From positions 53,395,554 to 53,459,553 of the forward strand of contig OX485803.1 in the NCBI GenBank assembly GCA_950295325.1: 64,000 bases of DNA. Direction: 5' to 3'. The notes beneath the pieces are model-generated. The model was not told where the DNA came from. It saw only the letters and a list, made by a program, of their open reading frames with translations, and made no database searches. Origin of the DNA: Polytrichum commune (lineage: Eukaryota > Streptophyta > Polytrichopsida > Polytrichales > Polytrichaceae). The position numbers were made by a program, and so were the translations under genes. Of this stretch, positions 2,033 through 46,623 are shown piece after piece; the stretch's first letter is position 1, and each line of letters starts with the position of its first letter.

Positions 2033-3569
2033 ATGGAGCGCTATGAGTTTAAGCGCAAATATGGATCGGTGAGTGGAGACTCCAAACTTGGTCAAAATAA
2101 AGCACGTGAATTCTGTGTGGTCCAGTACAGGTTGAGGACATCCCAAATTTGGGGGTAATCCAAATCGTCTTGCGAGGGGGACTAAGTTCACATTTTTTGA
2201 AATCTGGAAGTGTTCTATTTTCATAATTTGCGCAGGTGAAACGGCGGGTGATTCAGCAGTTTGTGGTGGAACCTGTTGTGGGCATCATTGTTCATTCCAT
2301 CGGTCACACCATTGTTAAGGCAGTTACGGTAATGGAGGCTCAGTTGGTTGTTTAGAGTATATCATTTTTCTAATATGCTCCCTCAGCACTTCCATTGCAG
2401 CTTATACAAGCAATAACTCTTGAACATGATACTAGGGTCAATGGGCTCAAATTCACGTTAGTAATGCATCATTGTTAGTAAAGAAAATAAATTATGTTCT
2501 TTTATATTTTGTTAGCAGTTTCATTGTAACTTATACAAGCAATAACTCTTTGATAGGATAGGACCAATGGGCTCAAATTCACATCAGTCTTATATTAGTG
2601 TCATTTCTTCTTTTTCATTTCTTTTATGCTCCGTTGACACTTCTATTGCAGCTTATGAAATCACGAGGGTCTTGAAGTTCATCATGTCTGTCCAAAATCT
2701 AGGATGGCGATAGATGATACCTTTGGTGGACATGGTACATAAACCACCATCCTAGATATTGGGACAGAGGTTCAGATGAACTTCAGGGCCCTTGCGAAGT
2801 TTGGCACTAGACATTTCCATTAATGTGGGCTGAGAATTAATGTTGCTTAAGTTGCCATGTTGAGTGGGCCACCCAAATTCCAACTTCAGTGACAAATAGT
2901 GTAATTGTCTAAATTTGTAAGCTCAATAAAATTAGCGAAGCTGAAATCCCTTATGAATGATTCAGTGATTCACGCATCCATAACTAATGCAATTCACACT
3001 ACATTATGGCGATGTTTGGTATAGTTGAAGTTCCTTTTCTGCTTTAAAATGTGCAGGTTAGACATAGCGTTCAGGGACAAGATGCCAACACACTATTGGA
3101 GGACACCTCCTCAGCTATCCACGCAATTAGTCCAAGTAAACCTTTGCAGTTACTCTCATCATTTGTAAACATGTGCATATTTGGCATGAGTCTTGAGAAG
3201 TTTTTTCAAGGAGAGGTTCCCTTATGAATTAGGTAATGGATGTGAGTTGTCTTGCCACGGGCTCCCAACTTATCTTGTTCTAATAGCAGTGAGGTAAGTA
3301 TTGGGCACTCACTAGCTACGTCTAATGGCAAGGTGACACGTGTCCATTATTGGACGTAGTGTCATTCCATGAGAGAGCCATCGATTATTGGTGATAGTGT
3401 GTTTTTGCGTATCCAATCAAGCATAGACATGTTAGCAAAATGGCTTGGCTTGATCACGAAGTTGTTGGAACATTGTTATATTGTTCTTGTGACAGATGTA
3501 ATGGAATTTGAAGATGATGACGAGCCCAACAATGAGCCCAAGGGACGTCCAGGCCTCTTCTGTTGCTAG
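2033..3569 (+). CDS. gene A: small spliced gene of an unrecognised family, paralogue of gene B
   Basis: I do not recognise the product. Proposed exons are 2033-2068 (36 nt), 2236-2328 (93), 3057-3135 (79) and 3496-3569 (74), all bounded by AG acceptors and GT donors with compatible phases (0, 0, 1). They give 93 residues. Exon 1 ends at a GTGAGT donor. Exon 2 begins VKRRVIQQFV and is hydrophobic later (VVGIIVHSIGHTIV), so it may be a membrane-associating helix. Exon 3 carries the motif DANTLLED, and exon 4 is acidic (EFEDDDEPNNE) and ends LFCC at a stop. Gene B at 43557 has the same 36-nt first exon, the same 79-nt third exon and matching peptides (VKRQVMEQ, DANQIIED, WEDD), which is the main evidence that this is a real gene. 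The C-terminal Cys-Cys could be a lipidation site, but that is only a guess. The gene may continue into exons at 4028-4447 if the terminal TAG is bypassed. Confidence 0.55.
2387..2584. repeat. short duplication in intron 2 of gene A
   Basis: About 70 bp around CAATGGGCTCAAATTCAC is present twice (about 2387-2458 and 2516-2584). A related piece also occurs near 18305 inside the receptor-like protein gene. It looks like a decayed dispersed repeat. Confidence 0.6.
2664..2796. repeat. imperfect inverted repeat (hairpin) in intron 2 of gene A
   Basis: Arms of about 45 bp pair across a loop of about 40 nt. The arms contain TTGAAGTTCATC with its reverse complement GATGAACTTCA, and ATCTAGGATGG with CCATCCTAGAT. 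There are a few mismatches and one 4-nt bulge. Such a fold can come from a small TIR element or form a miRNA-precursor-like transcript. A related single arm lies near 16005-16060, which favours a repeat origin. Confidence 0.65.
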
Positions 3570-4027
3570 GTACATAACATCTTGTTACCATATCTGCTCA
3601 ATGTTTGGGTCCTAATTCTAATACAAACATAACATGATGTTGCCATATATGATCATTGTTCGGACCTCCAAGATCGTTGTTGAAATTGACTGTCGAGCCT
3701 CTACCATCAACCATCAACCATCATCTACCTAACTTGATTCTCCAGGAAGCAAACATGGTGATGTCACTGAAGAATGTCATGTGAATGTTATGTAGGCTCG
3801 TATTTCTCTGATGATTGATTATTGCGAGATAATGTTCAAAGCATGTTCTTCTCAGTATTACATGGCCTTTGGTTTTCTGTAAGTGCGATTATGTCAGACT
3901 TGATGGTTTTATTTCTTGCTCAACTGTAAGAATGGCAGCACACGAGTAGATTAGGTCAGGATCAGACTGAATCATGTCGATCTTTGTAGTGATATAACAC
4001 AACCTGTTAAAGACGATGAATTTTCAG

Positions 4028-4447
4028 GTGATTGAAACCAATCAACTTTGCCAGCAAAAAGCAATTGCAGTGGTAACTCTGCTTCACGAAGACAGTACTC
4101 GGGAATTCAGAGACAGGATAGACAGACAAATCAAAAACCTACTAGTAGCATCCCCATCAGCGAATCACCTCTCTGATGACTCTCTACAAACAATGGGAGC
4201 TTGTAAGTATGGTAATTATCCTCGAATTTTGAACAATTGTTGCATTGGATCCCTTCAACTTAGTATTGGTAAATCTATGGCATAGTAGCTTGTGAGGCTT
4301 GAATCCATCAAGCAATCATATTGGGTGGATCAGAGATTAAGCTTAATCCATCGGTCCTTCACCATGCTAACTTGTCTGTTGTTCTGTTCTCCAGCTGGCC
4401 AAGAACAAATTTATAATGGCGATAATTTGCACCAGCACCGCACTTGA
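4028..4447 (+). CDS. two coding-like exons downstream of gene A (partial gene or 3' part of gene A)
   Basis: 4028-4202 lies between an AG acceptor and a consensus GTAAGT donor and stays open for 58 codons plus one base. The peptide is polar and charged (for example REFRDRIDRQIKNLL), as expected of a helical protein. A second exon at 4395-4447 follows an AG, joins in phase 1 and ends at TGA after 17 codons. No family is recognised. Entry is in phase 0. Exon 4 of gene A could reach it only through the TAG at 3567-3569, which directly precedes a GTACAT donor-like site. So this is either the tail of a gene A with a premature stop or an exon pair of a separate gene whose start I cannot see. Confidence 0.35.
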
Positions 4448-5033
4448 GCTCCAGACTTAACGTATAACTTCCTGGAAAACCAAGGACTTTTTTGGACTTG
4501 AAAATTTAGGGTAAATTTGTGCCATATGATGACAGCCTCGTTGCTGAATCTTGTGCAAATTCTATATAATTTACATGCTTTTCCATCGTAGCTCACATGC
4601 CACACACTAAGTGCTGGCATCCGTCACCTTTTGAAAATTTGTATAGTGGGACATCTTGCCAGTTCAACCTTGTAATTATACAGTTACTTCGACTTTGGTC
4701 ACCTGTAAGTTAATGATATCTCCAATAGAATGAGCTTGGATTTACTTGCACAAAACTTGCAGCACATGGTCGTCATGTTTGATATAGGCCCAACTTTAGA
4801 CATGCATGCTCTTTACTTAGAATTTTTCCTAAATATTTTGTGAGTCCATTTCCTAAGGCCATAGTAGGTATTTCACTTTAAGGTATTAACAGGCTGCGTG
4901 AGGCCGGGGATTCGTGGTACTCAAGTAAAGTCATCCGGTAACAAAAATCGGATGAGTCCATCAAGAAGCTCGGATGGAGCTTACTTTAGTAAAACACCTC
5001 CGAGTTGGCATGTAAGACCTATTTTTCTCCCTC
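4448..5033. other. intergenic, no gene seen
   Basis: Nothing coding is supported. An imperfect inverted repeat around 4922-4995 pairs AGTAAAGTCATCCG with CGGATGGAGCTTACTT. It is probably the edge of a decayed small transposon. Confidence 0.4.
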
Positions 5034-5832
5034 ATAGCTACTCGGGGGGTGCACCTTTCATTAAAACCTAGAATCACGTGCGTTCACTGCATACTCTAAA
5101 AACCCCCTATATACAAGTTATTTTTTGTGAAATGAAGTAATACACATACAATTGCAACAATAAATATACAAGTGATAATATGTATACACAAAAAAACATC
5201 CATTCATATATAGTCATTAACATAAGTATACAAATATACTTTTGAACAATAATCAACCCCTATAATATGTATAACAAAATATCCTAGCTTTCATCAGCAA
5301 AGTCATTGAAACCTTTTTCATCTCCCGGATGTAACTCGTAAACATTTGATTCACCAATATATGTCATTGTAGCCAATGCAGTTATTGTCTCTAAGTCTAT
5401 CATCAAATGATCAGTAAGATCATATATCCACTTGTTGTTAGCCCCTTTTTGATACCAACATAAACCAATCTCCTTGTTACTTTGAGCTGAACGAATCATT
5501 TCAAAACCCTAATACTGCCTCTTTCCCCGATATTACCTTGACACCTTGTACATGGTTCATACTACCCTATAAGGTTGCTAACGAAAATTGTTAATCCTAG
5601 TTAATCCTCATTTCATCCAATATGAAAACTTATGATATGTAGTATAATAACAGTACCATACAAGTACAATTATTGTATGCTTTTTAAAGGCCTTCCATAT
5701 ATGTACGTAACTATAAATTATAACATGTATACCATATGTATACGTAATACGGCAAGGTCCAAATCAATACCCCTCCTGTGCACTCACGTATACTCGTACA
5801 TGTTTAGTATAGTGCACCCCCCGAGCATAGCT
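5034..5832. mobile_element. TIR element, about 800 bp
   Basis: The ends are inverted copies of about 22 bp. The left end reads CATAGCTACTCGGGGGGTGC and the right end contains GCACCCCCCGAGCATAGCT. The interior is AT-rich and carries one minus-strand open frame (5284-5499). No clear target duplication was found. The GGGGGGT-containing termini resemble those of the foldback element at 29070-29425, so the two are probably one family. Confidence 0.6.
5284..5499 (-). CDS. hypothetical 71-residue open frame inside the TIR element
   Basis: The frame is open from just after a TAG and encodes a polar peptide ending in the acidic stretch DEKGFNDFADES. Its composition is more protein-like than neighbouring frames, and an AG lies just upstream of the first codon, so it could be a terminal exon captured or kept by the surrounding TIR element. 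No domain is recognised. It may equally be spurious. Confidence 0.2.
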   Translation of the reverse strand: MIRSAQSNKEIGLCWYQKGANNKWIYDLTDHLMIDLETITALATMTYIGESNVYELHPGDEKGFNDFADES

Positions 5833-6509
5833 ATTGTAAACTACTAGTTATTTTGTAAATATCAATTAGTTGGCAAGAGGCAACGATGTGGCATTGGATG
5901 CTCTAAGCCAATTTTCTAACCTCCCATGAGATTTTTCCAAGGCCATGATGTGGCTTTGAATTCCACATGGTTATTTTGCTAAATATCACAAGATATCAAC
6001 GTGTGCAACATATAATTATGATATGTTGTCATAGACCATTTTTTTGTCCATAATTCATTTATTTTGCACGGGTGTGATTGCTCAAACATTTGTAATATGT
6101 CAAAATAATATATATCAACTTATGGTAAATTGGTGAACTCAAAAATAAATACAATTTTATTATTATTATTATTATTATATACTATTTATTTGAAAATAAT
6201 TAATATATACCATGTGATTTTAAAGATAATACAATATGTGATGAGGATAAAATATTAAAATATTTCAGATAGGCTATAGTCAAAAACTTATGATTTTCTG
6301 AGTATACCTCATCCATAACGTTGTCTCACAAGTCTAATTCCAAATAACATACCATTTTTTTATACCTCGTATTATATTACTTAAAAAATAAAATAAATTT
6401 TTATAAATTTTTTGTTGTATGTTTTATATTCTACGTTCATTGTTTCATTTTGGTCATCTTATGAGCACTTGCACTGATCTATCATTAGGATGACAAAGAT
6501 AATTTTAAA
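5833..6509. other. AT-rich spacer with an (ATT)n microsatellite
   Basis: No gene is seen. A perfect trinucleotide run of TAT/ATT units lies at about 6157-6178 within very AT-rich DNA. Confidence 0.6.
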
Positions 6510-6800
6510 TGGTAAGTCACAAAATTACAACCTCAATGTTAATGAGGATTTTGTAATGTTTTTGACCTCCAAGTTAATTATGTGCTTCATTGATGGTTTC
6601 ACTTCCGGAATGAAATCCCAATTAATTGTTTATTTACTAATTGGAAGTGCACATATATATTGGATTTTAGACCTTGAAGGTGAAGTGCACACAATATGGG
6701 ATTTGTAGTCAAGCGGCCTTCAAGAATGCAAGGGCAATGGTTTTTTTCGAAGTTGGGCGGGATTGGGCGGGTTTAGAAAATTTCTCTAGAAGGTTGTCCC
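6510..6800 (+). repeat. dispersed repeat family R1, copy 1
   Basis: About 290 bp are clearly related, in the same orientation, to 63440-63750. Shared blocks include the GGTAAATCACAAAA-type start, TATATATTGGATTTT and GCAAGGGCAA, then a G/A-rich tail. Several substitutions and small indels separate the copies. No intact protein is encoded, so this is likely an old transposon fragment. Confidence 0.75.
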
Positions 6801-7679
6801 AACCCAGATCTGATACCTCTGAAAGTTCGTGAGGGGGTATTTAACGTCCGCCCATGTTAATTTTTCTTTAAAATAACCGGATTAGTAGTGATAGGTTGGC
6901 AACACAAGATGCCCCCACTTGCTTCTATATGAGGCATTATTTATTTTTTATGTCTATACCCCTTTGTATTGGTGCCTTAAGTATTAGATTAGACTAGGAT
7001 TTTTAAAACTACTAAAACTTGGTATTTTTGAAACCCTTGAGACAAGGAGCCGACGACGTATGGAAGTGTCTAAAGTGGTTCATCTCATCCGCAAATATGA
7101 ATGAACTCTCACTAATGAGAATACATGAGTGCCACAAATCCCCGTCCGCTGCGTGATAGATAGTTCATAGTATATCATGACTAGCTCCACTTGAGGACCT
7201 ATCTACTTTTTAAATTTGTTTTTTGAGATCCATGAAACTTGAAACCCAATACAGGAGATGCAGCTAGGAATTTAAAATTTTAATTAGTCTACATTGCTTT
7301 TGATCATGAGGAATGCAATCATATAGACTTGTACATTTGTAACATTTCATAACATTATTGAGATCTAGGTATGTTAACCATTTGCCTGAATTAGGTAGCC
7401 TAGACAAGTTGGCATATTAAGGGTAAGTAGGGATCCGGATTTAAAAGACGTAACTTTAATGCATATGAAACCGATCCAGTATTATTGCTACAATGAGTTG
7501 TGGTTCCATGTTTAAGGATCATGGTTTCATAATGAGCTCAACAATAATATATTGTTGACCAACTTGAGTATGTAGTAAGTACTTCGCAGACTATATATAT
7601 CTTTAAGATGGAATTTAGTGCAAATGTTCACAATTGCTACATATATAACATTGCAAAGAATCCTTCAGACATTGGACAA
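6801..7679. other. no feature recognised
   Basis: Moderately AT-rich non-coding DNA without open frames of note, tandem repeats or clear element ends. Confidence 0.4.
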
Positions 7680-11370: not shown

Positions 11371-11377
11371 ACACCTA

Positions 11378-11444
11378 TAGCTGAGTGGTGCATGTGTTAG
11401 TTGCAGACCTAAGAAAAGGCACCCTGCAAATCATGTTCAAATCA
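11378..11444 (+). repeat. tRNA-like pol III promoter, probable SINE head
   Basis: A box A match TAGCTGAGTGGT (11378-11389) is followed 56 nt later by a box B-like TGTTCAAATCA (11434-11444). The spacing fits a tRNA-derived SINE or tRNA pseudogene. A cloverleaf acceptor stem was not found, so a working tRNA is unlikely. Confidence 0.45.
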
Positions 11445-13570: not shown

Positions 13571-13612
13571 CATGCATCTGATTCGTGTGTGCCACATGCT
13601 TGTCTGTAAATA

Positions 13613-17652: not shown

Positions 17653-20600
17653 ATGAGCAGGCTCAGGCTACCGCAGCTGGTTTCTCTTTCATTGGTCATC
17701 TTGTTGGGGTTTATTTCAATTGGGTTCGGAGCTGCTGCTGAAGAACTCAAAATTAAGGTCAGCTGCCTACTTGATTACTAAAGACATTGATATAGTGCTG
17801 TAGTGTTGCATTTGATGTTGTAGGTTAACTATCTTAAGATAGGGTTACTGGGTCTTGAGGAATTATTGTCACCATGTTGCCATGACCAGTGTTACAAAAC
17901 ACCACGAGTTTCTCAGCTGGCCATGGAATCCATCCGGACGATTCAAATGAGGAAATCATGTGCGAAACTGTTCACAGGTACAGATTCTGGATGCAATTTT
18001 GGAAATTAGGAATTACCTTTACATATTAGATGTTGTACATGAAGAGCCCTGGTACAGGATGTAGCAAGGCGTCCTCATAAGGTACTACTCTAAGGCGTGT
18101 AGCAAGTTTAAGATGACCCTAAACTACCGGGTGATAATGAAAAGGTACCCATCAAATGGAGTGGATGGTGGTTCGATTCTCGCTATGAAATTTTCTCTCT
18201 ACTTGACGGAAAAAGCTAGGTAGGTAGGTAGGAAGCCAAGAGCCCACCCACCATAAGGTAGGTAATAAACCCCACCTTGCACCAAGAGGATTCTTGAGCA
18301 GGGTAGGACCAACGGACTCAAATTCACATCGGATTGTCCGACGTTGGGTATTTATTTATTTAGGTGTAGCACCAACCATGTTATGAGGGCTGTTTATTAT
18401 GGTTTTGTATTTGACGTGTCCACGTCCAATGGAGATACAATACATCAGCTACATTTGAGATGGTCAACGCTACGAATAACTACACTATTTATGCTATTTA
18501 GTGTGACATGCATAATAGTGTCACTTGATGTCCTAATCTAAGGAACACCGATTCCAACTGGGCGTTGTGACGGTACTTGTAAAGGCTTGGAGGACTACCT
18601 TCGAGCGAGCCAATAACGCAAAGATCCAAACCTGCACTCGGGTGAAGAATTTTGGATATTCAATATCCAAAATTCTTCACCCGAGTGCAGGTTTGGATAT
18701 TGAACCTAGTAAGTTTCCACAGAGGATTACAGCCGTTATCATGAAATTAAACCTGTGGTCTCCCCTTGCTAGTCTGTATTCAGAGGCGTTCTGCTTCGAT
18801 TTCACCAGGCCCAGCCCATTTGCTGCAGCGCTATCAGATCACCTGCTCTTCTGGGATGCATTCTCACACGTGTTAAAAATTCACTAACTTCATTTTCTTG
18901 CTGTGTCGGCAGGTGATCGAAGAAATTAACCAGCACAGCCAGGATAAAATTGACCTAGTGGAAACCACATTCTCAGACTCTGTTTATAATGGGAACTTTG
19001 GATCTGTACATGGGAAAGTGGTAGACAACGTGGAGGTGCCCTTGGCTGAGGCGAGAAGGAAATTGGTGCAGAACAATCCGAGTGACCAGAGTGTGTTGCT
19101 GTCTTTCAAGCAAGCAATTACAAGGGATCCAAATGCCACACTCCAGAGTTGGAATGCGAGTGTGAATGCGGACTACTGCCTGTGGAGAGGAGTGGTTTGC
19201 GACAACCACACTAAACGAGTCATTGCAATCAACATAACAGGTACACACACGTGTCGATCCTCATTATACAATCGCACACAAGATTGAAAGAAAATCATTC
19301 TACTTTACTGCATTGTAGGGGGCGCCACTTGAATGTGAGATGGGGTTTCTATCATTCAAGGGGGCATTAGAGGCAGGTGAATAAATAAATAAATAAATAA
19401 AATCTTCACTTAACCATGTGATCCATGAGGAGGAGCTGCTACTTGGAGGTGAACTTCAACCATCATGTGGGTAGTTGTCATGTAGTGGGTAGGACAAATA
19501 ACTCCCTAGTAGGGTTAGTCACCGCAACACTTATGGCCAATTCACAAGGGATTCCAAGTCTTAAGTCCTAGTTCACTTGAGGTCAATCCGTGCAATCTTA
19601 GCCGTTGAGAACATGGAAGTTGGGACTATCATTTCACACAGGTCCCAAGTCCTAAGTCCAAGTATGACATGGATGCCTACATGACAACACTTTTTGGAGG
19701 TGAGGGTTGGCACTTGTGTTGAGAATTAGGTCTAGCTTTTTGCTCGACCCGACTCTCAACACAAGTCCTAAGAGTTTTTTGCATAAACTAATCAAGTTTT
19801 GATTTTATTGGCTATAAACCATAATTAATGGTTTCTTGAGGTTCAAAAGTTGGGACTTTGCCTCCATGTTGGGACTTGCTGACATGAGTGGGACTTGGGA
19901 CCCTGGCATGTGAATTGTTTCTTGGATGCTTGAGGATGGGATTTAACCGCCAAGTAGCACTAGAGGAAAGTTTACGGGCTTGTGACATTGATAACTTCTA
20001 ATGACAACTATTGACCCATTCATCTACTAATACTTACCCATAGAAAATTTGATGTTTGCTGACAGTTGGAATAATTCCCAACAACCCAATGTAGAAAAAT
20101 TATTGGCGAGTGTGGACAAGAATGTCAACTGGTAGAATACAAGCTGCTAACATGAGGTAGCAAGGGATGGACCAAAGTTGATAGAGTGAGAGGGAATTAT
20201 TGCATAATATAGTACGAACATACCTCTCACAAAGTCCTGAAACATCTACACTAAATAGTCCTAATATCGTGGGCCACAATAGTCTTCTAGAGCTTAATAT
20301 GCTAGTTCTCATAACAAAAATTAATGTGGCTGAGTCACATTAATTTTCAACCCACGTTACAGTTCTTGCAAAAAATTAACGAGGGCCACATTAATTGTTA
20401 AAAATTCTAGAAATTTAATTTGGATGATTTTTTTAAAATTTTCCTACTTTTGTCCTATAACTAAAATTTAATGCGTTCGTCGGAAGCCTTCATGAAGTCT
20501 TGAAAAAAGACCTCGGGTCTTGGACCCACGTTAATTCTACCTTGATTAAAAATTTAGAATCGCCCTCGCTAATTTCCACCCACACTAATAGGACTATAGA

Positions 20601-23600
20601 CTAGGGCGAACCAACCCGTACACTGGTTCCTTACAGGGAAGGGTTTCGACATCCAACAAGGAACAAGTGTATGGGTTGGTTTGCCTAAATCTAGGACTAT
20701 ATGGCGTAGTTTGCAACCCAAACGCTAGCTTTTATTTATTTAGTTGAGTTAACATCATGATTAGCGTCAAAACCTTGAATTAGTCTAGTTGAAGATAAAT
20801 GAGATGAATTATATAGCCACAAACCTATAGGAGTCCAAATTTTATATTGGATGAATGAGAGGTAGACTCGTATGCAACTTTGCCCTCTCAGCAGATGATA
20901 GGCATGATGGGCAGGTTGGTCGGTGACAGCACATGTGCAGCTTTATATTTATAAAACTAAAAAAATTTGATATAAGATTATCAGGTTATCAACTCCCCCG
21001 TGTTCACAATGACACATGGATCGTCATCAAAAGGAACTCTGACATCAAGAGGATTCGGAATTTCTAATTGAAATTGTAGTTACAGGTCTGAAAAGCGTGA
21101 AGGGGTTAGTTTAGCAGGATTATAATAGCTGCCGTGTCTTCCATATCATTTGAGGTTGACTTGAGTCTCAATATGTGTAATGCGTCTTATCCGGGGTCTT
21201 TGGTTCACGTTCATTTGAATATGACTATACATAACATTATTCAACTGCTATCAGCCATCTCATTCTAATGATATTCAGTGTTTCACCCGAATTTCACATT
21301 GTTTTCAGGTTGAATTTACCTACTAACAAGCATTTGTAAAGTATGATTCTAGCACTTTACATGACATATTCCCGGTCCCACCCAACATGATCATTCAATT
21401 GAATAATGTTGTGGACGAATATTATGACCTGTATAATTTTCCATCCACACTGATAAGAGGAATTCTTGACATAGTTCTCACTTTAAGAGTCATACGGTTG
21501 GAGATAACTTCACTTTTGTCACATGTCAACGTGGACCCCTCTTAGTTTTGTTTCATCGCCTCCTGCCGTTTATATTGGATGCTAACATTCATTAGTGGCT
21601 TAAGGTTGAGTTTCCATGTATGTTGTTCGCACATTAGATTCTAGATAATAGTGGGTCGAATGTGTTCTCATGAGGATGATAAAAAAAAGCAGCCAACCAA
21701 CAACAATTTGGTTGCCTACTAGAATGTGGAAGGTAGTGACCAAGGGCTACTAGACCACCATGCCCTCACTTAAAACACTTAAAATAATAGTCGTTGGTTG
21801 GCACATATGAACCCGACCCAACTATATTTCATCTACATTTGTCCTTATTCACACCGAAGTCTAATGGACGAGCCGCATATATACATGGAAACTCACCTCA
21901 AACTATGTACACTTCATTCTTGACTTAGCAGATAAGATAGAATGTTTATGGGAAGCACTTAGATTGTGTATTGTAGAGTTTTCAACAAACAACTATAATT
22001 TATCAAAGTTCTTTAATTTCAGCCTCTTTCTTTGAAAAGAGACCACCATCTAGTTGTTTAGTAATGTTATGTCACCTCAAGCTATCTAGACTTCATTCTT
22101 GACTTACCAAATAAGATAGAATGTTTATGGGGAGCCCTGAAACTATGTACTGTAGAGTTTTCAACAAGCAACTATATATTTGTCAAAGTTCATTAATAAC
22201 AACCTCTTTCTTTGAAAAGAGACCATCATCTAGTTGTTTAGTAATGTTATGCAGCCTTTTCAAATGTATTTACAACTAAAAGTTCAATAGAGATCAAGGT
22301 ATTGACTCCACATGTTCACAATGACACACGATCATCTATGATGTTGAGAGGATTCGGAATTTTTAATGGAAATTGTGCTTACCGGATTTGAAAAGGGCGA
22401 AGTGGGTAGTGTAGCATGTTTCATAATAGATGCCGTGTCTTCCATATCATTTGAGGTTGCATGGTATCTCAACATGTGTGATGCATATGACCAGGGTTCC
22501 TCTGGCCCACACTAATTTCACCTTGACTAGACAATTATTGTGGCCCATATTAAATTTCCACCCATACTAAAATGAGCATTTAGTGACATAGTTTTCACTT
22601 TAAAAGTCATGCTGCCAAGGCTAACTTCACTTTTGTCATGTGTCAAACATGGATTTCTTGTCTAGTTAGATTTCATGAATTTACTTTTCAAGTTTTCCTT
22701 TTGGCAAGTCTTTTCGGCTTGGGAGAGCCGAAGTACCACCTGGTGGCAATGAAAAACAAAATATTGTTGTATCTTGGAGATCCAAGGAATATAGATAGTT
22801 GCAAGCAACTCTTGCAACATGGTGAGTGCTACGCTAGACATCGTACACGTGTCGTCCTTCTACAGGCTATAGGATGGCGACTCTCGCATACAATATCTAA
22901 TACGTGGGGCATGCAAACAAATTGCTCTCATGATGACGATGTTCTATCTTGTCTCTTAAGTCAAAAAATGAAGTTCAGAGAAACTTGGGATGAGTTTTCA
23001 TGTATGCTAGAGTCCAATACACTCTAGTGGGAATTAAGACAAATGTAGATGAAATATGGGTGGGTCGGGTTCGTATGCACCAGCCGACTATTATCATTTG
23101 AAGTGTTTAGTGGTCGCATGAAAGTTTAGTGGCCCATGGTCACAATGCTTCCACATTTTAATAGACAATCATAATGTGAAAATTGTTCATGAGAACACAT
23201 CCAACCTAATAAATGTTGGTATCTTAATACTATGAATGGCAGGAGGCGATGGAACGAAGCTCAGAGGAAGCATCAGCCCCAAGCTCGGATTGCTCACGTC
23301 GCTCGAAAACCTGACGCTCTCCAACAACAGCTTCACCGGCCGAATTCCAGCGTCATTCGGCGGCCTAACCTCACTCCAAATCCTCCAACTCCACGACAAC
23401 AACCTCACAGGCCCAATTCCAACAGCCCTTTCGAATTGCACCAACCTTCGGATCCTCGACGTGGGATCCAACAACCTCACAGGAGTTCTTCCGGTTGAAC
23501 TCGTCAACTGTAGCCGTCTGGAGGAGATCCATGTGACTTCCAACCTTCTTCAAGGTACCCTTAATCCCAAGTTTAGTGCTCTTCCCAGCTTGAAGGTCTT

Positions 23601-26037
23601 CGATGTCAAATACAACGGGTTCAGTGGCAGCATCCCTCCGGAATTTGGAAACTGCTCCAACTTGCAGAACTTCTCAGCAAATTATAACAATCTCACGGGG
23701 AAGATACCACTGGAGCTTGGGAGGATTGCCTCACTTGAACGTCTTGAACTGCATGGGAATTACCTCACGGGAGTGATCCCAACGGCGTTGGCTTCTTGCA
23801 GGAATCTGAAGTCGCTAGATGTTGGTGCCAATACCCTCACGGGAATTCTTCCAGGTGAACTTGCGCAGAATTGTAGCCACTTGGAGATACTCGATGTGTC
23901 TTCGAACATGTTACAGGGTGAAATCGATCCTCGGTTCGGGACGTTGATGAATTTGACCTATTTTTTGCTCATGTGGAATAACTTCACCGGTAGCATTCCT
24001 TCGACATTCGCGAGTAGTTCAGGGAAGTACTGCTCCAAGCTCCATAGCTTTGCGGTGTACAACAACCGTCTCACGGGTACGGTGCCGCAAGGGTTTGGTG
24101 ATTGCCCTAATTTGCAAGGTTTTCTGATCAGTTACAACAACATTTCTGGAATTCTTCCACCGGGGCTCGGGAGGTTGCAGAAGCTGACCGTATTGTATTT
24201 CCAGAACAACAGCCTCACGGGACCGATTGATTGGATGCAAAATTGTAGCACTATGTGGCTTGTGCACGGGGAGTTTAACAATCTCACCGGACCGCTTCCG
24301 CAGACGTTTGGTGCGAATTGCTCAACAATCCAACAGATTTACGTGCACTACAACAGTTTGTCTGGCACCATTCCAGCTGCCTGGGGAGAATGCTCACAGT
24401 TTTACAACATTGAGCTCAGTAACAACAACTTGACTGGGAGCGTGCCTGCGGAGATTGCGAAGCTCCAAAACATGAATGGATTCTTGGTGAACAGCAACCA
24501 GCTTACAGGCACCATACCTCCATCCTTTGGAAACTTGCCCAATGTGAAGTATCTGTATTTTGATGGCAATGATTTGGAAGGGACGATCCCGAGTGAGCTT
24601 GCGAATTGCACCAATTTGGTTCACCTGCATGTGCACAACAATGCAAGGCTTACTGGAACCATTCCACCGGAGCTCGGTAGGCTGCAATATTTGGTAAATC
24701 TTGTGGGTTTCAACACCAATCTTCACGGGGAGATTCCGGAGTCTCTTGGCAATTGCTCGTCACTTGTGAATTTTGTTTTCAACAACAACTCGCATAATGG
24801 GAGTTTGCCTAACAGTCTTGGCAGACTATCCAAACTCGCGAAGTTCGTCTTTTCCGATAACCAGCTGGAAGGACCGATCCCATCCACTCTTGGCCAATGC
24901 TCTGCTCTTCAGATTTTCGATCTCTCCAGCAACAAGTTGACCGGAGCCGTACCCGCAACATTGTCAAATTGCACCAACCTCACGCAGCTGATGCTCGGCA
25001 ACAACCAATTGAACGGAGAGTTCGTTGTGGATTTAAGCAACATGACGTACTTAGAAAGCTTGTCGCTCACCAACAACTCCTTCACTGGAAACATTGCCAA
25101 GACTCTCAACTTGAGCTCCACATCGCCGAACGTCTCTGTGATCGACGTAAGCCGCAACAAATTCAGCGGAGAGCTTCCAACAACATTCAACACCTCATTG
25201 CTGGCAAGTCTCAGGGTGTTGTTGCTTGGGCACAACAACATAACCGGAACAATACCATCCTGGATTTGGAACCTGCCGGCATTGGAAGTCCTCGATTTGT
25301 CCAACAACTACTTTTCAGGCCCCTTTTCAGGCAATTTCAGTAACCTAAAAGGATTCATGGACAGTAACCAAACCACTCTTTCCAGCAGCACTTCGTCGCT
25401 CTACGCCCAAACCATTGTGATCACCGTTAAAGACCAACAATTGACCTTCACCACAGTTTTGCTAACATCCGTCTCCATGGACCTTTCGGTGAATGACCTC
25501 TCCGGATTCATCCCCACAAGCATCGGTGAGCTTGTGAGTGTGGTGAACTTCAACCTTTCGTCAAACGTATTTGTTGGTACAATCCCTGAAAGCATCGGTG
25601 ATTCTATGGGTAACCTACAATCTTTGGATTTGTCAAACAATCGTCTGAGTGGAGAGATTCCTCAGTCGTTTGCTAAGCTTAGTCAGTTGTCTGTTCTCCG
25701 GCTCGCTAACAACAATCTCACCGGGAGGATTCCCACCAGCACACAAATCCAGACCCAGAATAGCACCGCCTTTAGTCCTGGAAACGAAGGACTTTGTGGT
25801 GCACCCCTTTCAAATGCATGCAATAGTACCAATTCTGTAAATGCGACGAGTACTGGAATTTTTTCCAGCGACCCGGAGTCGTTCACCGATATCTTCTCCG
25901 TCCCTGGGTTTATGGTGGGGATTGTTATCGGATTTGTTTCGGTCTCCACCATCTTTGTCTTTTGGGAGCCTGCTCGGCATTTCCTCCACATCGACCATCA
26001 CGAGAAGCCCACTGGAGCATGGCATCCTCGCAAATGA
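17653..26037 (+). CDS. leucine-rich-repeat receptor-like protein (RLP), three exons
   Basis: Exons 17653-17757, 18913-19240 and 23243-26037 join in phases 0 and 1 to give about 1075 residues. Residues 1-26 form a signal peptide (MSRLRLPQ, then an aliphatic core). An in-frame ATG at 17602 would add 17 mostly polar residues and is less likely. Residues 36-92 are an unusual polar spacer. An LRRNT domain covers about 93-144, with Cys 124 and 131. Then come 28 plant-type LRRs (LxxLxLxxNxLTGxIP; many begin CxNL), an island at about 845-887 with the IVITVKDQQLTFTTVL signature, four more LRRs, and NEGLCGAPLSNAC near 993-1005. One TM helix lies at about 1031-1052 (GIVIG, a GxxxG motif), followed by a 23-residue tail and no kinase. 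By family knowledge such RLPs sit in the plasma membrane and signal through a co-receptor kinase such as SOBIR1. The ligand is unknown. Intron 2 is 4002 bp and filled with repeats. All exons are open. Confidence 0.9.
17824..17977 (+). other. candidate cassette exon in intron 1 of the RLP gene
   Basis: After a 66-bp candidate intron, 154 nt lie between TAG and a CACAG|GTACAG donor and are open in the incoming phase 0. The peptide is cysteine-bearing (LLSPCCHDQCYKTPR). It exits in phase 1, which does not fit exon 2 (entry phase 0), so inclusion would shift the frame and meet a stop six codons into exon 2. It may be a regulatory poison exon, part of a second transcript, or a relic. A phase-correcting mini-exon at 18828-18868 is possible, but it would leave an intron of only about 44 nt. 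Confidence 0.35.
18624..18698. repeat. perfect 75-bp palindrome (37-bp arms, 1-nt centre)
   Basis: The left arm 18624-18660 is the exact reverse complement of 18662-18698, with a single C between. It lies in intron 1 of the RLP gene and would extrude as a perfect cruciform or RNA hairpin. Complete identity implies a recent origin or an artefact. Confidence 0.95.
19533..19918. mobile_element. MITE family M1, copy 1 (in RLP intron 2)
   Basis: Ends GGCCAATTCACAAGGG and CCCTGGCATGTGAATTG form imperfect terminal inverted repeats. The interior is rich in CCCAAGTCC/GGGACTTGG words and matches the better preserved copy at 35286-35646. The TTCACA-type termini suggest hAT affinity. No coding capacity. 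Confidence 0.7.
20245..20606. mobile_element. MITE family M2, copy 1 (in RLP intron 2)
   Basis: The left end CTACACTAAATAGTCCTAAT and the right end CACACTAATAGGACTATAG are inverted relatives of each other. The interior shares the GTGGGCCACA and GGGTCTTGGACCCA blocks with 33889-34251. Non-coding. Confidence 0.7.
20990..22690 (+). repeat. direct duplication inside RLP intron 2
   Basis: The block 20990-21210 recurs at 22300-22510; both contain TGCCGTGTCTTCCATATCAT and GAGGATTCGGAATTT. A trailing block near 21465-21560 recurs at 22575-22680. The copies are about 80 percent alike by eye and separated by other repeats, so the duplication is old. Confidence 0.75.
21645..23210. mobile_element. long inverted repeat pair at the end of RLP intron 2
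   Basis: About 190 bp at 21650-21865 are found inverted at 23025-23205, sharing ATGTGTTCTCATGA and GACAAATGTAGATGAAATAT. The arms bound about 1.2 kb that includes a 129-codon frame at 22638-23027 with no recognised domain. It could be a Mutator-like or other long-TIR element. It ends just before exon 3 of the RLP gene. Confidence 0.5.
21890..22252 (+). repeat. tandem duplication, unit about 180 bp
   Basis: Copy 1 (about 21895-22073) and copy 2 (about 22074-22252) both run from CACCTCAA through TAAGATAGAATGTTTATGGG and CTTTGAAAAGAGACCA to AGTAATGTTATG, with roughly 90 percent identity by eye. Confidence 0.85.
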
Positions 26038-27500: not shown

Positions 27501-27509
27501 GTGTCACAC

Positions 27510-28945: not shown

Positions 28946-29069
28946 GGGAGAATAACAACAATAGAGAGAAGGGAGGTAGATGATGGCATGAGGTTCAAGT
29001 TTTAAAGTTTAAGGTTTAGGTGTTGAAGTTATTCTTAATAGGCCACAACATAGGATGTCACCCTTTGCC

Positions 29070-39236: not shown

Positions 39237-39746
39237 TGCGAAACCGCGACATATGGCTCACGCACATGGACCAAATACCTGCTGCGCCCCCGTCCTGCTG
39301 CACACAGAAGCGGCGCTTCTTTGGGGGCTCGGGAGAGAGGCCTCGCGCGAGTTGCCTGGGCAGGAGGCGCAGCACATCCACAGCCCAGCCTGCGGGCAGC
39401 CACGCCGGGTTGTGGGAAAAAAGGCAAATTCAACGGCCAGGTCAAAATTTTTGTGAGCTACCCCTCTGTACCTCTCTGTACAGACTCCAGAGGCCGAGAG
39501 CTACCTCATTTGTGCCATTTTCGCAGCCAACTTCAAACGCTTCCTACAAGGTGAGTTTTTAAGTTTTTTCAATTTCGTTTTTTGGGTGTGGAAGTTCTCT
39601 ACATCTACTTTATATTTATATGTTCATGATAAACATGATTGTACTAATCATGCCTTTTGTCTAGGAAAAGATTTCTTCATGTTTTGAGGTTTCAATTTTG
39701 TGGAATTTTCAAATCTTAGGGTTCATAGTAAGAGTTTTGTTGTTAG

Positions 39747-40763
39747 ATGGGGGATGAATTGCCAGGGTCATTCATGGAGTTTATGATGGAAGGAAGTAGT
39801 GCTAACGTAGCACACGTGGAGCGCTTCGAACCAGTTCCTCCAGTGGTTTCAGTGACAACTCCGAAGCCACGACGTGTACAACCCAATTCTAAACCAAAGA
39901 GGGTGCACAAAAAGAAGGTTGTTGTTGCTTCTACATTGGTAGATGACGAAGCTACCGTTGGCGGGCGGTGGAGCGACGATGCCATCAACAACATTTTGGA
40001 CTTGTATCAAGAGGAGTGGATTCGCATAGACAAAGGTAATCTAAAACCCAAACACTGGACACACATTCGTACTGAGCACTATAGACAAATGCCATTAGTT
40101 GTGCGTCGTAAGGAAGAGCATATCAAGGGGAAGATTGAGAAGCTCAAGGCTGAATGGAGAGTTCAAAAAAACTCTCCAGAGGAGGCCACAGGTGGAGAAG
40201 AATCTTCGTGGCATTGGTTTGAGCGAATGTCCGAGATACTCACTGGATCAGCAAAAGGGGAAGGAGTTCCAGGTGGAGTGGATATGGGAACTAGTGTGTT
40301 ATTGTCAGAAGATGAGGAGGATATTGTTGTTTTCGAAGACGGGGGAATTCCTAAGATGCCAATGTCTATAGCTAGTGGAGAGAAATCTTTTAGTACTCCC
40401 ACAACAGTTGTTTCGGAGAAGAGTGTTTCTCCCAAGACCGCTTCATGCATGAAGCTAGGGGTGGATGGGAAACCAAATTCTCGTAAGCGTGCATTCACTG
40501 GGAATGCAACATATATGGCAGATGCAATCACTAAGTTTGCTGAAGGTTCTTTCCAAGTAGAACAGCACAAGATGGAGACCCAAGAACGGATGCACAATAT
40601 CCAGATGGAAACCAATAAAGCCATTGCAATGAAGCAGATGGACATGGAGATGGAGACAAGGCGACTTGATATGAAGGCTCGGCGTGAAGCTGCTGTGATG
40701 CAACTCAGGATTGCAGAGTTGTTTAGCAACAACCTCCATAGTGCACGCAATTCAACACCATGA
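39747..40763 (+). CDS. PIF/Harbinger ORF1, Myb/SANT (trihelix)-like DNA-binding protein
   Basis: The frame encodes 338 residues uninterrupted. After a basic, proline-containing N-terminal region (KPRRVQPNSKPKRVHKKK, about 48-66) comes a Myb/SANT-like fold from about 82 to 170. It has the tryptophan pattern GGRWSDD, EEWIRI, KHWTHI, AEWRVQ and SSWHWF, followed by an acidic linker. Residues about 265-335 are a long charged helix rich in Met, Glu and Arg, probably a coiled coil. In PIF/Harbinger elements ORF1 protein binds the element ends and helps bring transposase to the nucleus; that role is family knowledge. The ATG at 39747 precedes all conserved parts. The lack of stops contrasts with the dead transposase next to it. 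Confidence 0.85.
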   Translation: MGDELPGSFMEFMMEGSSANVAHVERFEPVPPVVSVTTPKPRRVQPNSKPKRVHKKKVVVASTLVDDEATVGGRWSDDAINNILDLYQEEWIRIDKGNLKPKHWTHIRTEHYRQMPLVVRRKEEHIKGKIEKLKAEWRVQKNSPEEATGGEESSWHWFERMSEILTGSAKGEGVPGGVDMGTSVLLSEDEEDIVVFEDGGIPKMPMSIASGEKSFSTPTTVVSEKSVSPKTASCMKLGVDGKPNSRKRAFTGNATYMADAITKFAEGSFQVEQHKMETQERMHNIQMETNKAIAMKQMDMEMETRRLDMKARREAAVMQLRIAELFSNNLHSARNSTP

Positions 40764-41124
40764 TAGTTTGGTGTCATTGCTAATGTTTCATTTGTATGTT
40801 TGTTTTTACATCTATAGTTATTGTTATTCAGGATTATACCGTGATATATATGTTTTCTTTTCATACATACTAATATGATCTGTGGTATTGAGTACTACTA
40901 GTGATATGTCATTTAAAGAGTTTGTCCAAAATGTTACAAAAAATTGTTCATAATAATCAAGCAGATGATGTAGGCAACAATGCTCCGGGAGATTCATGGG
41001 CATAACCAATAAGATCCTAGTGTTTGTAAGTCCAATCGGTGACATGTTCACATCCTCCGGATTTCCTTTGTTAGATTGGGGTATATTATATAAATTCCTC
41101 TAAAATGATCATAACAATCAAGTT

Positions 41125-42453
41125 TCAAACAGTTGAAGAGGTTGGTACAGCCTCTTGCATATCCAACCAATTTTGGAACAAAACATCACGTATCTCTTCT
41201 CTAGCCTCTTTAGCTGCACGACCTTCTTTGATAACTAGCCGTCGGCCTCTCACCATGTGTAGTGGAACCGGATCCGTTCTCATAAGTGGTTCCTTCATGA
41301 ATTGGCAAAAGTTGTGTAGAACACAACAACCTACAACTATAGACGGTGCAGTATCTACCCTAGAATTTACAGAATTAAGAATGCGTCATCGCATTTTCAA
41401 TAATCCAAAAGCATTCTCAATGCTTACTCTACCACCGTTTATTTGTCTATCAAACCTTATTTTGTCTACATCTCCATCTGCCGGTTTGTAATTTCGAAGC
41501 AAGTAGGTTCTACTAGGATACCTTGCATCACCTAGTAAAAAATGCTTGATATGTGTTCCATCTACGATGACAACTGGTGTAGCCAATATTTCTCTCCATC
41601 GAATCTGCTCATAGATCTGTGAGATCTTAAATTAACCTCCATCAGCAATTCCACCAGGTACCGAACAACATACATTCCAAAACACCTTGTCCATGTCACA
41701 AACAACTTGTAGAACTATAGAACTAAAACATTTTCTTCTGCACTAGAAATCTACCACTACAGCTGTTTGACGTTTATCGGGCCTTCGTTGAAGAGGAATG
41801 TGGCTCCCATCTATACTCCCGCACACATTTGGTAATTCACAACTCTAAATATACCCTGCTATAATCCTATCTAAACGAGCACCTGAAGGCACCGAAATGT
41901 ACTTCCCAAATAACTTATCTCTAGATATTAAAGCATCCAAAACAATTCCCATATATTTACGTACTGTTGAAGCACCTACATTAAACCTATCCGCTATAAT
42001 TTCTGCAGTGATTCCATGAGCAAGACGGTACAACACTATACCGACAGCTTTTCTAATTTCTAAAGGAGCACGTACAAAGTGAATAGAAGTAGATTGCAAA
42101 TAAGGCTCAAGCTCGGAGACCAAATACATAAAAGATGCATAAGACATACGATATGCTTCAAGGTATTTTCTATCTCTCATCTCCGGTGAAGTGTGCCATA
42201 CCAAGCCTTCAATGATGTCCCATTGTGTTGATTGTCGAGGCTCCTTCCACCACACACGTCCAGGTTGCGGCTCAAACAATGAGAGAATTGCTATAATAAT
42301 TGGGAATACCCTCACCATGAAAGGACGTTCTTCCAAAATTGAAGAACTTCCCAAAAGAGCTCTCTTTCTCTTCCTCGACATACACCGTAATGTCACTCCA
42401 TTAAAAAGAAAAAATGACGAAATAAGTGCCCACATCTTGTCATGTGTGTCCAT
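41125..42453 (-). pseudogene. PIF/Harbinger DDE transposase, inactivated by four stops
   Basis: The frame runs 443 codons from the ATG at 42453 to a TGA at 41125 without a frameshift. It is interrupted by in-frame TAG (41845-41847), TAG, TAA and TGA codons. The N-terminal half has the helix-turn-helix-like part (AHGITAEIIADRFNVGASTV). The first catalytic Asp lies in GSIDGSHIPL. The second lies in a degraded CDMDKVFW segment before PGG. The third block is GDARYP, then YLLRNY and IENAFGLLKMR followed by a stop where RWRIL is expected in the family. A C-terminal helix follows. The element cannot now supply its own transposase. Stop-only decay without indels suggests point mutation, possibly deamination. 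Confidence 0.9.
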
Positions 42454-42899
42454 TCCACTACTCTTACAAGACCCGTTCCCTCTACTACACCCTAAAACAC
42501 TAAATAATATAACTAAAAATCACCACAACAAAAAATTCCTTAAAAACATACAAACTCAAGAAATGGTAGCAACTAAACACTCACAAGTATCCTCGCAGCC
42601 ACCCTCCCAGTTAAGCTCACATATTAGGTCTCTAAAATGTTTAGTTGGGCTGCCCCAAAAGCGGCGGGCACGAGAAAAAAAACCTAAAAAAAAGAGCCTC
42701 GTGGTGGCCGGGCTGCAGCATCCATCCGCTGGGTGGATGTAAACCCCACATCCATCCGGGGTCTGTGGCAGACCTGCAGGCTGCGCCCCCTGCCTGAGCC
42801 CGGCAATGTGCTGTGGCTAATACTCACACGCAAAGAGCTGCTCTCACGCGGTGAGCTCAAGTGCACTCCCTTCCGAGGGAAGGATGCAGGCAAGTGTGA

Positions 42900-43316
42900 T
42901 TAAAGTTTGGATTGTGGAGGAATCGCACTGACATTTGCAACTCTCTGCAACGGAAATCCTTCGTCACTGGCCCGCCTTCTCCTGGACCCTTGGGGATCCC
43001 CGCATTGTTCACGCCCTCCGGAGCGCTTCTGTGATTGAAATTTGAAGTTGGAGCTCGATTGATATGGGGAACGATTAAAGCCTCTGGTTTCGTGCCCGTT
43101 GCTGTGCACTCTCTTCTTCACTCGTTACTTGGTGGCAGATCGGGTGCCCTCTTTTGGCTTCTTAGAGTCCATTTCCTCTGTTTGTGCTAACATTTTTCGG
43201 TGGAAATTGCGACTCTGCGACGCACACAAGAGCTTGGGAGGTGCGAGAAGGTAATGATGACTGAGTTTGATCACCACAGCACACGATTCCTCTGCTCTTA
43301 GGTTCTCATATCCCAT
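42900..43316 (-). pseudogene. minus-strand frame divergent from gene B, split by one stop
   Basis: From 43316 a frame runs to a TAA at 43125-43127 and continues in the same frame to 42900. The part after the stop is basic and Ser/Arg-rich (GSRRRRASDEGF), the part before is lysine-rich (MDSKKPKEGTRSATK). The single stop could derive from a CAA codon. The product is unrecognised. It lies head to head with gene B, about 240 bp from its start codon, so it may be a first exon of a divergent gene, a relic, or chance. Confidence 0.25.
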
Positions 43317-43556
43317 TCTGACCCACCAATTGCCTCGACTGATTGACTGATTGGTTTATTTAGTTCAGCTGTGAGTAAGGTTGTCTGTCTCAGGTGGTGG
43401 AATTTGTGTCAGCGCAGGTTCGCAAAGGAGAAGAGGAGAGGGGGAAGAGGAAAATATCACGGGAGCGAATTTCATTCACAAACCGCGTGGTGTGGCGTTT
43501 GTCTGCGTTTGTCTGCATTTTGTCTGCACTGTCCGCGGGAAGGCGGGGAGTTCGGA

Positions 43557-45002
43557 ATGAATCGGCGAGGAATGAAGCTTAGACATGGATCGGTGAGCTC
43601 CGAGAGTTTTTCGAAGTGCCGTTGCCGTACGGTGATTGATCCACCTATCGAAAGATAGACACCAAACCATCCCCGGTTATCGTGTCCTAGCGGATATGAA
43701 ATGGAGATGGCTATCGGACCATTATTCACGTCGTTTCACACATTGTTTTGTTTTGTTTTCTTTTCAAGTGCCTTGATTTTTGTTTTATCTATCGAAAATT
43801 AGGCAATAAATCATACCCTATGTCACGGACATGATATGAGTTGGCTAACGAACCATCATTCACGTCGACGTTGTTTTTCTTCAATTTTATTTTCAAGTGC
43901 CTTGGTTTGCTCAGGTGAAGAGGCAGGTGATGGAGCAGAGTACGCAGGCTGTGTGCAGAGCAGTCAAGTTTGTGCTTATTACATTACCACAACTCATTTG
44001 GGGGCACTTCCGGGGCTGTGCCAAATTAATTGAGAGGCCCCACCTGCAGTTGGAGGCTAGTGAATTTTATCAGACTTTGCTCCAGTTCTTGTAGTAACAG
44101 AAAGCTCACCAAGAGAGCCAGTCTAATGTTTTTCACATGTGATAAAGTGAGGCTAATTACACTCACTAATGCACTCGTTCGGTTCTTGCCGCTCTTTTCA
44201 TCTATTCGTTCTTCATTTCCAACGCAGTTGGCAAATTAAGGTCAGAACTAGATGCGTTCGGCCTGTGGTATATCATATCTGTATGTTCAGTAGTTTGCCC
44301 CACCCGCAGGTGAAGGGTAGTGAGTTTTGTCAAATTTTGCTCTAGTTCTTGTAGTAGCAGAAACCTGACCGAGAGAGCCAGTCCAATGTTTTTAAACATG
44401 TGATAAATTGAGGCTATTGCGCTCACTAGTGGACTCGTTGAGTTCATGCCATCGGAGCAAATGTCCATCTTCAACGCAATGTCAATTGAATGTCAGAGCT
44501 AGATGTTTTGGAACTATGGAATATCACATCCGTGTGTTTAGTAATTTCATTATAATTTGAATAGGGCAGGCTGTGGAACAACACCTGTGCATTTGCATTC
44601 AAGATATAGTTTGCTGACAACTGGGATTGATTCTTCTTTATGCAGAGTATACATGAGGTTGCTGATGCAGATGCCAACCAAATAATCGAGGACATCTGCA
44701 CAAAAACTGACATCACTGCTCCAGGTAAATTGCAAATTACATATGCACTCTGCATTAGCAGGAAAGATGTGTTTAAGGGGTTGTTGGCATGCCTGGAATC
44801 TTTAAAGCGCAGGTTCCTCATCGTGCTCTGCTTCTGTTGTGTACAGATGTGACCGTATGGGAAGATGACTCCTACAGTGCTGAGCCCATGCATCTTCCTA
44901 CGGTAAATGGTGACAATTACCACCAATTTGTGGAGAATTATATGTCAAATGTGGTTTATATGTGCTTTGGAAGGAAGGCATGTTCCATATTGGTTCCTCC
45001 TT

Positions 45003-45036
<34 letters not shown>

Positions 45037-46623
45037 TGCTGCTTTTGCATGTTTATTACTAAAACTGATGACAGAAGGATGACGCTGTCTCCCTTGTTCA
45101 ATTGTGAGAAGGGCAGTGTCCACCAGATTTTAAAAATTAGATTGATGCGCTTAGTAGTATTTTAAGATGTCTCAAAGTTGTTTAGAAGTAATTGCAGTGA
45201 TTCAAATTGATCTTTTGCAAGCAGGAAACATTTTGTCTTCTGCTGTATAAAGAGAGACACTCTTTAATTTCAGAAAAATATATAAATATCCATGCCGGTT
45301 CCTTTTTCGCTCAAGTCGGAAATTGGAAAACCAAGTGGTCCAGCAGGCTATATCTTTACCTAGGAGGATGGTTGTGGTCTTGAGGGAGTTCCATGTGGTC
45401 CTAACCATGTACACTTCATAATTGGTCAATCTGCTATGAAGATGCTATGCTATGAAATAGATACTTCTCTGTAGATACTTCTCTGTCCATACCAAAGAGA
45501 GCATTGGATTCATTCTAGCAATTAATTTCCCCTTAATTGTGTTTACTGCAGGAGAGCATTTGTATATATACAGCTGAACAGCTGGAGACTAGCCCCTCAA
45601 CTGATCATCCTCTCTTAGGTGCAGTGTGATAATACCTCATTTTCTAGCCACACCCTGTTAGCATGGATGGCTAATTCTTGGTAGATTATGCATGCCTAGT
45701 TTCGTTGTCCTTTATTTCAACAATTTTGCGGTCCTCATGATCCTGTGGTACTATATTGATGGATATAACAGGATTTGAAGATGGTGTACCCTGCATTGAG
45801 CCAAAGCCTGGTAGTGATGATTACTTAATGATTCCATCTCTCACCAAGAGCACAATCTTGGACCCAAGTGCCATCATGCCAATCCATGAGGTATACCCAA
45901 ATACTGTTCATTGTATGCAGTTATGTGAATTCGGATGCATTGATCTGTCCTCTGTACATTGATTGTCCTGGAACAGCAATGTTTGTTTACTAGATTACAA
46001 AAAAATCAGTTTGTGTAAGGTGGATCTGTATTCATTCTACCCAGTTCTTCAGGCACAGTTCTTTGTTGTAACACTTGCCTCTGGTGGAATTGCAGGACCA
46101 TCTGAAGGAGAGTGGTGATCACACAAATGCAGGTCAGTATGTGTCAAGCCACCTTATTGTGTTTCTTATAGCAATCTGACCTGCTGTTTAATTATTTAAT
46201 CTATTGTGTGGGATATAATGAGATTGACTTATTTCTATCTTGTACAGTAGCAAATTACATGTATTGTAAACTATTGTCAAGAGTTTGACTAATAGAATCT
46301 ATCAGTGTGTTGGATTTTACATTTTACATATGATAGGGGTTCATTATTATTCAAAATTATATTTTTATAATTATATTAATGACCATATATAGATTTTTAA
46401 ATATTTTATGTATACATATATTGTCACTTGTAATTTTTTCATTGAAATTTTATGTTTATTGCTTGATATTACAATCTTTTTTTTGGTTTTTTTTTTGTAA
46501 ATAAGGAGTTTTTAGAGTATGTGGCGAAATGCAGGTGGTTCTTGGTTTTTAATGAAAGGTGCACCCCCCCAGGGATTGCCTGAGTCCATCAAAAACCTGC
46601 GTTTGGAGGACACTTGCGCATGA
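43557..46623 (+). CDS. gene B: eight-exon gene of an unrecognised family, paralogue of gene A
   Basis: Proposed exons are 43557-43592, 43915 to about 44049, 44646-44724, 44847-44902, 45552-45618, 45772-45890, 46096-46132 and 46535-46623. Except for the exon 2 donor, every junction is AG/GT with matching phase (0,0,1,0,1,0,1). The product is about 207 residues. Exon 1 gives a basic 12-mer. Exon 2 starts VKRQVMEQ and contains a hydrophobic run FVLITLPQLIWG. Exon 3 has DANQIIEDICTK, exon 4 VWEDDSYSAEP, and exon 6 EPKPGSDDYLMIPSLTKSTI. The last exon ends IKNLRLEDTCA. I know no family with these motifs. Exons 1, 3 and 4 match gene A in length or motif. No clean GT donor closes exon 2: at 44049 the expected GT reads TT, while the duplicated copy downstream has CAG|GTGAAG. 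So this gene may be alternatively spliced or damaged. Confidence 0.55.
43709..43910 (+). repeat. tandem duplication in intron 1 of gene B, period 134 bp
   Basis: GGCTATCGGACCATTATTCA at 43709 recurs as GGCTAACGAACCATCATTCA at 43843, each followed by CACGTCG and then TTTCAAGTGCCTTG. The second unit leads directly into the exon 2 acceptor. Confidence 0.75.
44039..44550 (+). repeat. tandem duplication over the exon 2 boundary of gene B, period about 259 bp
   Basis: Copy 1 starts at CCCCACCTGCAGTTGGAG (44039), copy 2 at CCCCACCCGCAGGTGAAG (44298). Both continue through AGTTCTTGTAGTA, GAGAGCCAGTC and ATGTTTTT to GTAxTTT. The difference at the presumed splice donor (TT against GT) is notable. Confidence 0.85.
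45004..45040. repeat. (TG)n microsatellite in an intron of gene B
   Basis: A TG dinucleotide run of about 17 units with one interruption lies in intron 4. Open frames across it on either strand are artefacts of the repeat. Confidence 0.9.

Follow-up and report, generated by a model that had tools for sequence, protein, structure and literature searches.

A putative pair of diverged paralogous genes of related exon structure in Polytrichum commune

The stretch of DNA analysed here (the window) comprises 64,000 nucleotides (nt) of the moss Polytrichum commune, C1:53395554-53459553 in an assembly of 408 Mb and 64 contigs. It contains two genes of related structure, A (2033-3569) and B (43557 to approximately 46132), which are located on the same strand with a spacing of 41.5 kb and which, judged from the comparisons described below, are very probably homologous and protein-coding. 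As predicted from these data, the pair is of an ordinary kind, namely diverged paralogues, possibly of a small lineage-restricted gene family. A sequence-only reading made earlier had proposed a real paralogous pair with diverged introns, and this was borne out beyond chance by spliced alignment, shuffled controls, comparison with 20 other loci and blastn.

Exon positions were obtained by exact match of the exon letters to the window (Table 1). Exon 1 was 36 nt long and ended GGATCG|GTGAG in both genes, as established by reading and by script. Exon 2 began with VKRRV in A and VKRQV in B, exon 3 was 79 nt long in both, ended in phase 1 and contained DANTLLED (A) or DANQIIED (B), and exon 4 was acidic and began ATGT in both; apart from the phase-1 end and the ATGT start, these features had been listed in the sequence-only reading and were seen again. 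The identical exon lengths that it also claimed held for exons 1 and 3 and failed for exons 2 (93 nt in A versus 48-57 nt in B, leaving about 13 residues of A absent from B) and 4 (74 nt with the stop codon in A, 56 nt without a stop in B). Three introns with phases 0, 0 and 1 were placed on both the A-to-B and the B-to-A alignment paths, and all three introns of A were GT-AG. The positions of introns 1 and 3 agreed exactly; the second donor was uncertain in B and also differed on the B-to-A path.

For spliced alignment, the joined peptide of each gene was searched against the window minus its own gene on both strands, with introns permitted only at the positions and phases of the query. Gene A found B at a score of 88.5 (200 dinucleotide shuffles of the window: mean 50.7, standard deviation (SD) 4.7, maximum 82), and B found A at 93.5 (mean 48.1, SD 4.0, maximum 64); none of the 200 shuffled windows reached either score. 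The traced paths used four exons in order in both directions. The next window ends listed for the A query scored 69.5, about 1.7 kb past the end of B, and 56.5 on the minus strand; those for the B query scored 77.0, about 1.6 kb past the end of A, and 58.5 on the minus strand. The ends at 69.5 and 77.0 probably continue those same paths. In 76.8 kb of sequence from 20 other loci of the genome, searched on both strands, A scored no more than 50.0 and B no more than 51.5, this control being composed without three loci (L004, L009 and L010) that had been picked genome-wide for likeness to A or B. Local alignment of the joined peptides scored 94 (shuffles: mean 24.1, SD 4.6; 0 of 1000 reached 94). 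The peptides were not independent samples, A and B having first been paired by their likeness, and the margins were judged large enough to allow for this. At the nucleotide level, blastn with word size 7 returned four colinear matches at exon starts and ends with expectation values (E) of 0.001, 0.13, 0.47 and 1.6; E was 1.6 for a further four matches as well, and no intron match was better.

The form of the alignment mattered. A preceding version with free introns and a low intron penalty failed to distinguish A or B from chance: elsewhere in the window A scored 191-202 and B 154-159, against self-scores of 474 and 375 (masked N read as A). Close to the start of a short sequence the fixed-intron version does not admit introns, and its scores for short regions and single loci may be too low; padded reruns were accordingly relied upon for the paths, the 20 loci and the comparison of B exons 5-7 with the sequence downstream of A. 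Unpadded, A scored 48 against the minus strand of locus L027 (25 shuffles, no more than 46); padded, nothing among the 20 loci exceeded 50 for A. Taken singly, A exon 4 showed a modest similarity to B exon 4 (79 of 3000 shuffles reached it) and a weak one to B exon 6 (277 of 3000), and B exon 4 had none to B exon 6 (1414 of 3000).

Coding potential was scored as codon log-odds, trained on 1348 codons of matches to conserved families (proteasome, LEAFY) plus a 933-codon leucine-rich-repeat (LRR) frame of the window; two proteasome loci with stops in their matches were excluded from training. Each null distribution comprised 2000 draws, taken as open pieces from supposed non-coding sequence of the window. 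Gene A scored 14.7 (null -23.6, SD 11.4), a value reached by 1 of 2000 draws, and exons 1-7 of B scored 14.3 (null -37.4, SD 14.5), reached by none. The claimed frame was the best of six in 4/4 exons of A and 7/8 of B, a result partly built in by the choice of exons open in that frame, for which reason the open-piece null is the fairer test. Codon usage thus agreed with the view, held in the sequence-only reading, that both genes are coding in the frame given. When the aligned codons were summed with the BLOSUM matrix, the claimed frame gave 122 and the other two forward frames 46 and 36; plain column shuffles never reached 122 (0/2000), and column shuffles kept free of stops did so in 13/300, which is weak support for the frame. 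It was concluded that A and B are putative coding genes, with fast or relaxed divergence between the copies.

Several results weigh against this interpretation. In the same spliced test, loci L004, L009 and L010 scored 80.5, 71 and 71. These loci were rejected as relatives: they had been drawn from the whole 408 Mb by weak tblastn-type hits (E 0.8-4.7) and were taken as chance, and the traced paths in L004 and L010 each ran through one intronless stretch, with repeated units visible by reading in L004. The B-to-A path closed exon 2 of A at 2289, before a weak donor (gttcat), instead of at 2328. For exon 2 of B no good donor was present, the boundary first assigned being no GT and only the weak phase-0 sites gca|gtcaag and ttt|gtgctt lying nearby; the A-to-B path took the second of these. 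Exons 5-7 of B had no counterpart in the sequence downstream of A (score 29, equalled by 139 and 133 of 200 shuffles in the padded test). The three codon positions showed nearly equal identity between the genes (44, 39 and 45 of 71), which counts against constraint on the code. Finally, the ratio of nonsynonymous to synonymous divergence (dN/dS), a check named in the sequence-only reading, was 1.12 over 71 codons, with a bootstrap range of 0.61-2.08 that spans 1; the proportions of nonsynonymous and synonymous differences (pN and pS) were 0.41 and 0.38. The pair therefore gives no evidence of purifying selection or of constraint at the protein level, and the description of the family as selected was not upheld. 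By exon, dN/dS was 0.75, 0.55, 3.17 and 0.73 for exons 1-4, with few sites in each.

Further copies were sought exon by exon throughout the assembly. Of the 5 matches that the tblastn-type search returned for A, 3 fell in its own exons and 2 were weak; of the 6 returned for B, 4 were its own and 2 were weak. A pattern for exon 2 with at most one mismatch occurred at 4 places in the genome, only A and B being exact, and the backward control likewise at 4 places; an exact pattern for exon 3 occurred four times, in A, in B and twice elsewhere, against 0 in its control. The remaining places, C6:20028056 and C5:32297021 for exon 2 and C1:66013866 and C2:49548424 for exon 3, were rejected as third copies on chance-level spliced scores. 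No third copy was thus found in the assembly with patterns built from A and B, which a very diverged copy could escape. Nor was a known family encountered, in agreement with the domain-free description first given: Pfam yielded nothing for A with E allowed to rise to 10, the best Pfam match of B was 0.13 (chance level), NCBIfam gave one hit of 0.11, far under its cut-off, and the best match among PDB sequences was 0.61, nothing meaningful. Six words from the A and B peptides were not found in papers.

These searches bear on whether A and B belong, whole or as fragments, to a gene family widely conserved in plants, which is unlikely but is to be taken seriously. Short divergent proteins are frequently missed by Pfam, and the searches covered Pfam, NCBIfam, PDB sequences and one genome; against such a family stands the lack of any Pfam match for A at the permissive threshold used and the single chance-level hit for B.

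Alternatively, the pair may derive from a working gene of which one or both copies are now pseudogenes drifting without constraint. A dN/dS near 1.1 would be expected of such decay, as would an exon 2 of B without a good donor, a last exon of B that starts in a repeat, B exons 5-7 unmatched after A, and a short A with a stop codon closing its exon 4. Opposed to it are joined frames that stay open over 93 (A) and 149 (B) codons, coding-like codon usage in both genes, and shared exons that need no frameshift or stop in either model, although the models were built open; decay of this kind was considered improbable. More improbable still is a long non-coding transcript with the shared segments as its exons, incidental open frames and conservation at the nucleotide level, for which speak the even identity at the three codon positions, the stop-free shuffles that equal the BLOSUM sum and the placing of the four colinear blastn matches beside splice sites or within exon 3, and against which speak codon usage, the preference for one frame (including the plain column shuffles) and the absence from the window of any Rfam match reaching its gathering score.

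The reading of A and B as coding paralogues leaves their origin and function to be considered. As best explanation, an old local duplicate pair in a small, fast-diverging family is favoured with some reserve: one old local duplication in the moss would have given A and B, whose sequences and 3' exons would later have diverged. The N-termini of both predicted products are basic, each with a net charge of +5 over its first 20 residues, and the parts after residue 45 are acidic (A -8, B -17). A hydrophobic stretch, of 19 residues with a mean hydropathy of 1.69, is present only in A, which ends in CysCys; B has a longer acidic tail (isoelectric point (pI) 4.7). From this composition the products might be small, non-enzymatic and adaptor-like, a tentative proposal that is on balance rather unlikely. 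Exons 1-2 would supply the basic N-terminus, a core of one or two probable helices from exons 2-3 would bind a partner, and the acidic segment of exon 4, [FW]EDD...EP, could serve as a second short contact site. This segment may resemble motifs that bind SUMO or the kinesin light chain. Because of its hydrophobic stretch and terminal CysCys, A may be sited on a membrane, and because B lacks the stretch and has the longer acidic tail (pI 4.7), B may be a soluble partner; this division is doubtful. In exon 3, pN (0.48) nominally exceeded pS (0.21), over few sites, as would be expected if the core helix were positively selected, for example in reproduction or defence. The full scheme, a moss-restricted adaptor family with an amino-acid rate as high as the silent rate, an exon-3 helix under positive selection and membrane and soluble copies, is highly improbable.

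If the pair is real and moss-restricted, it would be a clean case of a small lineage-specific family, with two copies, a shared intron frame and no domain. Such a pair would enlarge the known set of moss-specific genes by one family and would change no concept. It is easily tested in moss transcriptomes, or by knockout in a model moss.

Among known systems, SnRK2 kinases begin MERYE..., and the first five residues of A are alike while the start of B differs; this identity was rejected, neither A nor B having a Pfam kinase match. Moss orphan genes are named in a paper on cold acclimation of Physcomitrella (PMC4301180). As portrayed in the excerpt of that paper considered here, they share with A and B the lack of recognised relatives or domain; they come with expression data, whereas A and B are known from the DNA letters. 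The Physcomitrella YAN/AltYAN gene is described, in the corresponding excerpt, as derived from a hemerythrin gene and dual-coding (PMC5908804). It has in common with the present pair unusual coding evolution in a moss gene. Unlike YAN/AltYAN as given there, A has no Pfam match at all, and frame +1 of exon 3 is open in A and stopped in B (by reading).

The 3' end of B was tentatively placed at exon 7. The sequence-only reading had carried the gene on to 46623, through a last exon which starts inside a dispersed repeat, and that end was given up. In a genome search with the tail of B, 14 of 18 matches lay elsewhere, each of them weak (E 0.05-2.8) and all 14 including the repeat segment of this exon. 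The 17-base word TTAATGAAAGGTGCACC at 46549-46565 (plus strand) recurs exactly at 5048-5064 (minus strand), downstream of A, the chance expectation for an exact recurrence being 0.05 matches. Since its segment recurs across the genome and this word is repeated exactly, the exon ending at 46623 is doubtful and is probably not part of the original B gene. Additional exons of A at 4028-4204 and approximately 4388-4446, in an open stretch 3' of the gene, were also rejected. The stretch starts beyond the stop codon of A, 4028-4204 had a codon score of about -9 in its own frame (null -12.9, SD 11.6) and is not coding-like, and both of two matches in a genome search were to the stretch itself, with no other copy.

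Table 1. Exons assigned to genes A and B, with positions in the window
Feature	Positions	Strand	Length (nt)	Content and boundaries	Basis or remark
A exon 1	2033..2068	+	36	MERYEFKRKYGS; donor gtgagt	alignment path; highest codon score of the six frames
A exon 2	2236..2328	+	93	VKRRVIQQFVVEPVVGIIVHSIGHTIVKAVT; hydrophobic stretch (A only)	codon score; alignment path
A exon 3	3057..3135	+	79	QDANTLLED inside; phase 1 end	spliced alignment; codon score
A exon 4	3496..3569	+		acidic EFEDDDEP; terminal GLFCC, then stop TAG	codon score; alignment path
B exon 1	43557..43592	+	36	MNRRGMKLRHGS; donor gtgagc	codon score; alignment path
B exon 2	43915..43968	+		VKRQVMEQSTQAVCRAVK	3' end uncertain, 43962-43971; weak donors
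B exon 3	44646..44724	+	79	DADANQIIED inside; phase 1 end	codon frame second-best of six
B exon 4	44847..44902	+		DVTVWEDDSYSAEP...; no stop, reads on	codon score; alignment path
B exon 5	45552..45618	+		phase 0 to 1	open frame; GT-AG ends; best of six frames
B exon 6	45772..45890	+		FEDGVPCIEPKPG...	GT-AG ends; best of six frames
B exon 7	46096..46132	+		DHLKESGDHTNA	codon score; may run to a stop in the following intron
Last B exon of the sequence-only reading	46535..46623	+			begins in a dispersed repeat

Within intron 2 of B (approximately 44040-44540, plus strand) a segment of about 240 nt seems by reading to be present twice in tandem, in diverged form. Upstream of B, a Myb/SANT-like frame (39747-40763, plus strand) is followed by a frame on the opposite strand (41845-42519, minus strand) with a weak, below cut-off match to a transposase helix-turn-helix; this is presumably the arrangement of a PIF/Harbinger-type element. 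Between the two genes lies the 933-residue LRR open frame (23236-26037, plus strand), which by reading has a C-terminal hydrophobic segment (receptor-like protein type), and a separate LRR N-terminal domain was located at 18877-19284.

Elsewhere in the genome the LEAFY SAM domain was matched four times, and two of the loci (L011 and L012, on different chromosomes) were fetched. Both read NGLDYLFDLYEQC at the LEAFY binding-domain site and are of the D type, and we take this D to mark type II LEAFY, and with it the genome to be that of a moss. In the portion of the source considered, type II LEAFY is placed mainly in mosses and one liverwort, and residue 312 of LEAFY is given as one of three type-defining sites (PMC6588583).

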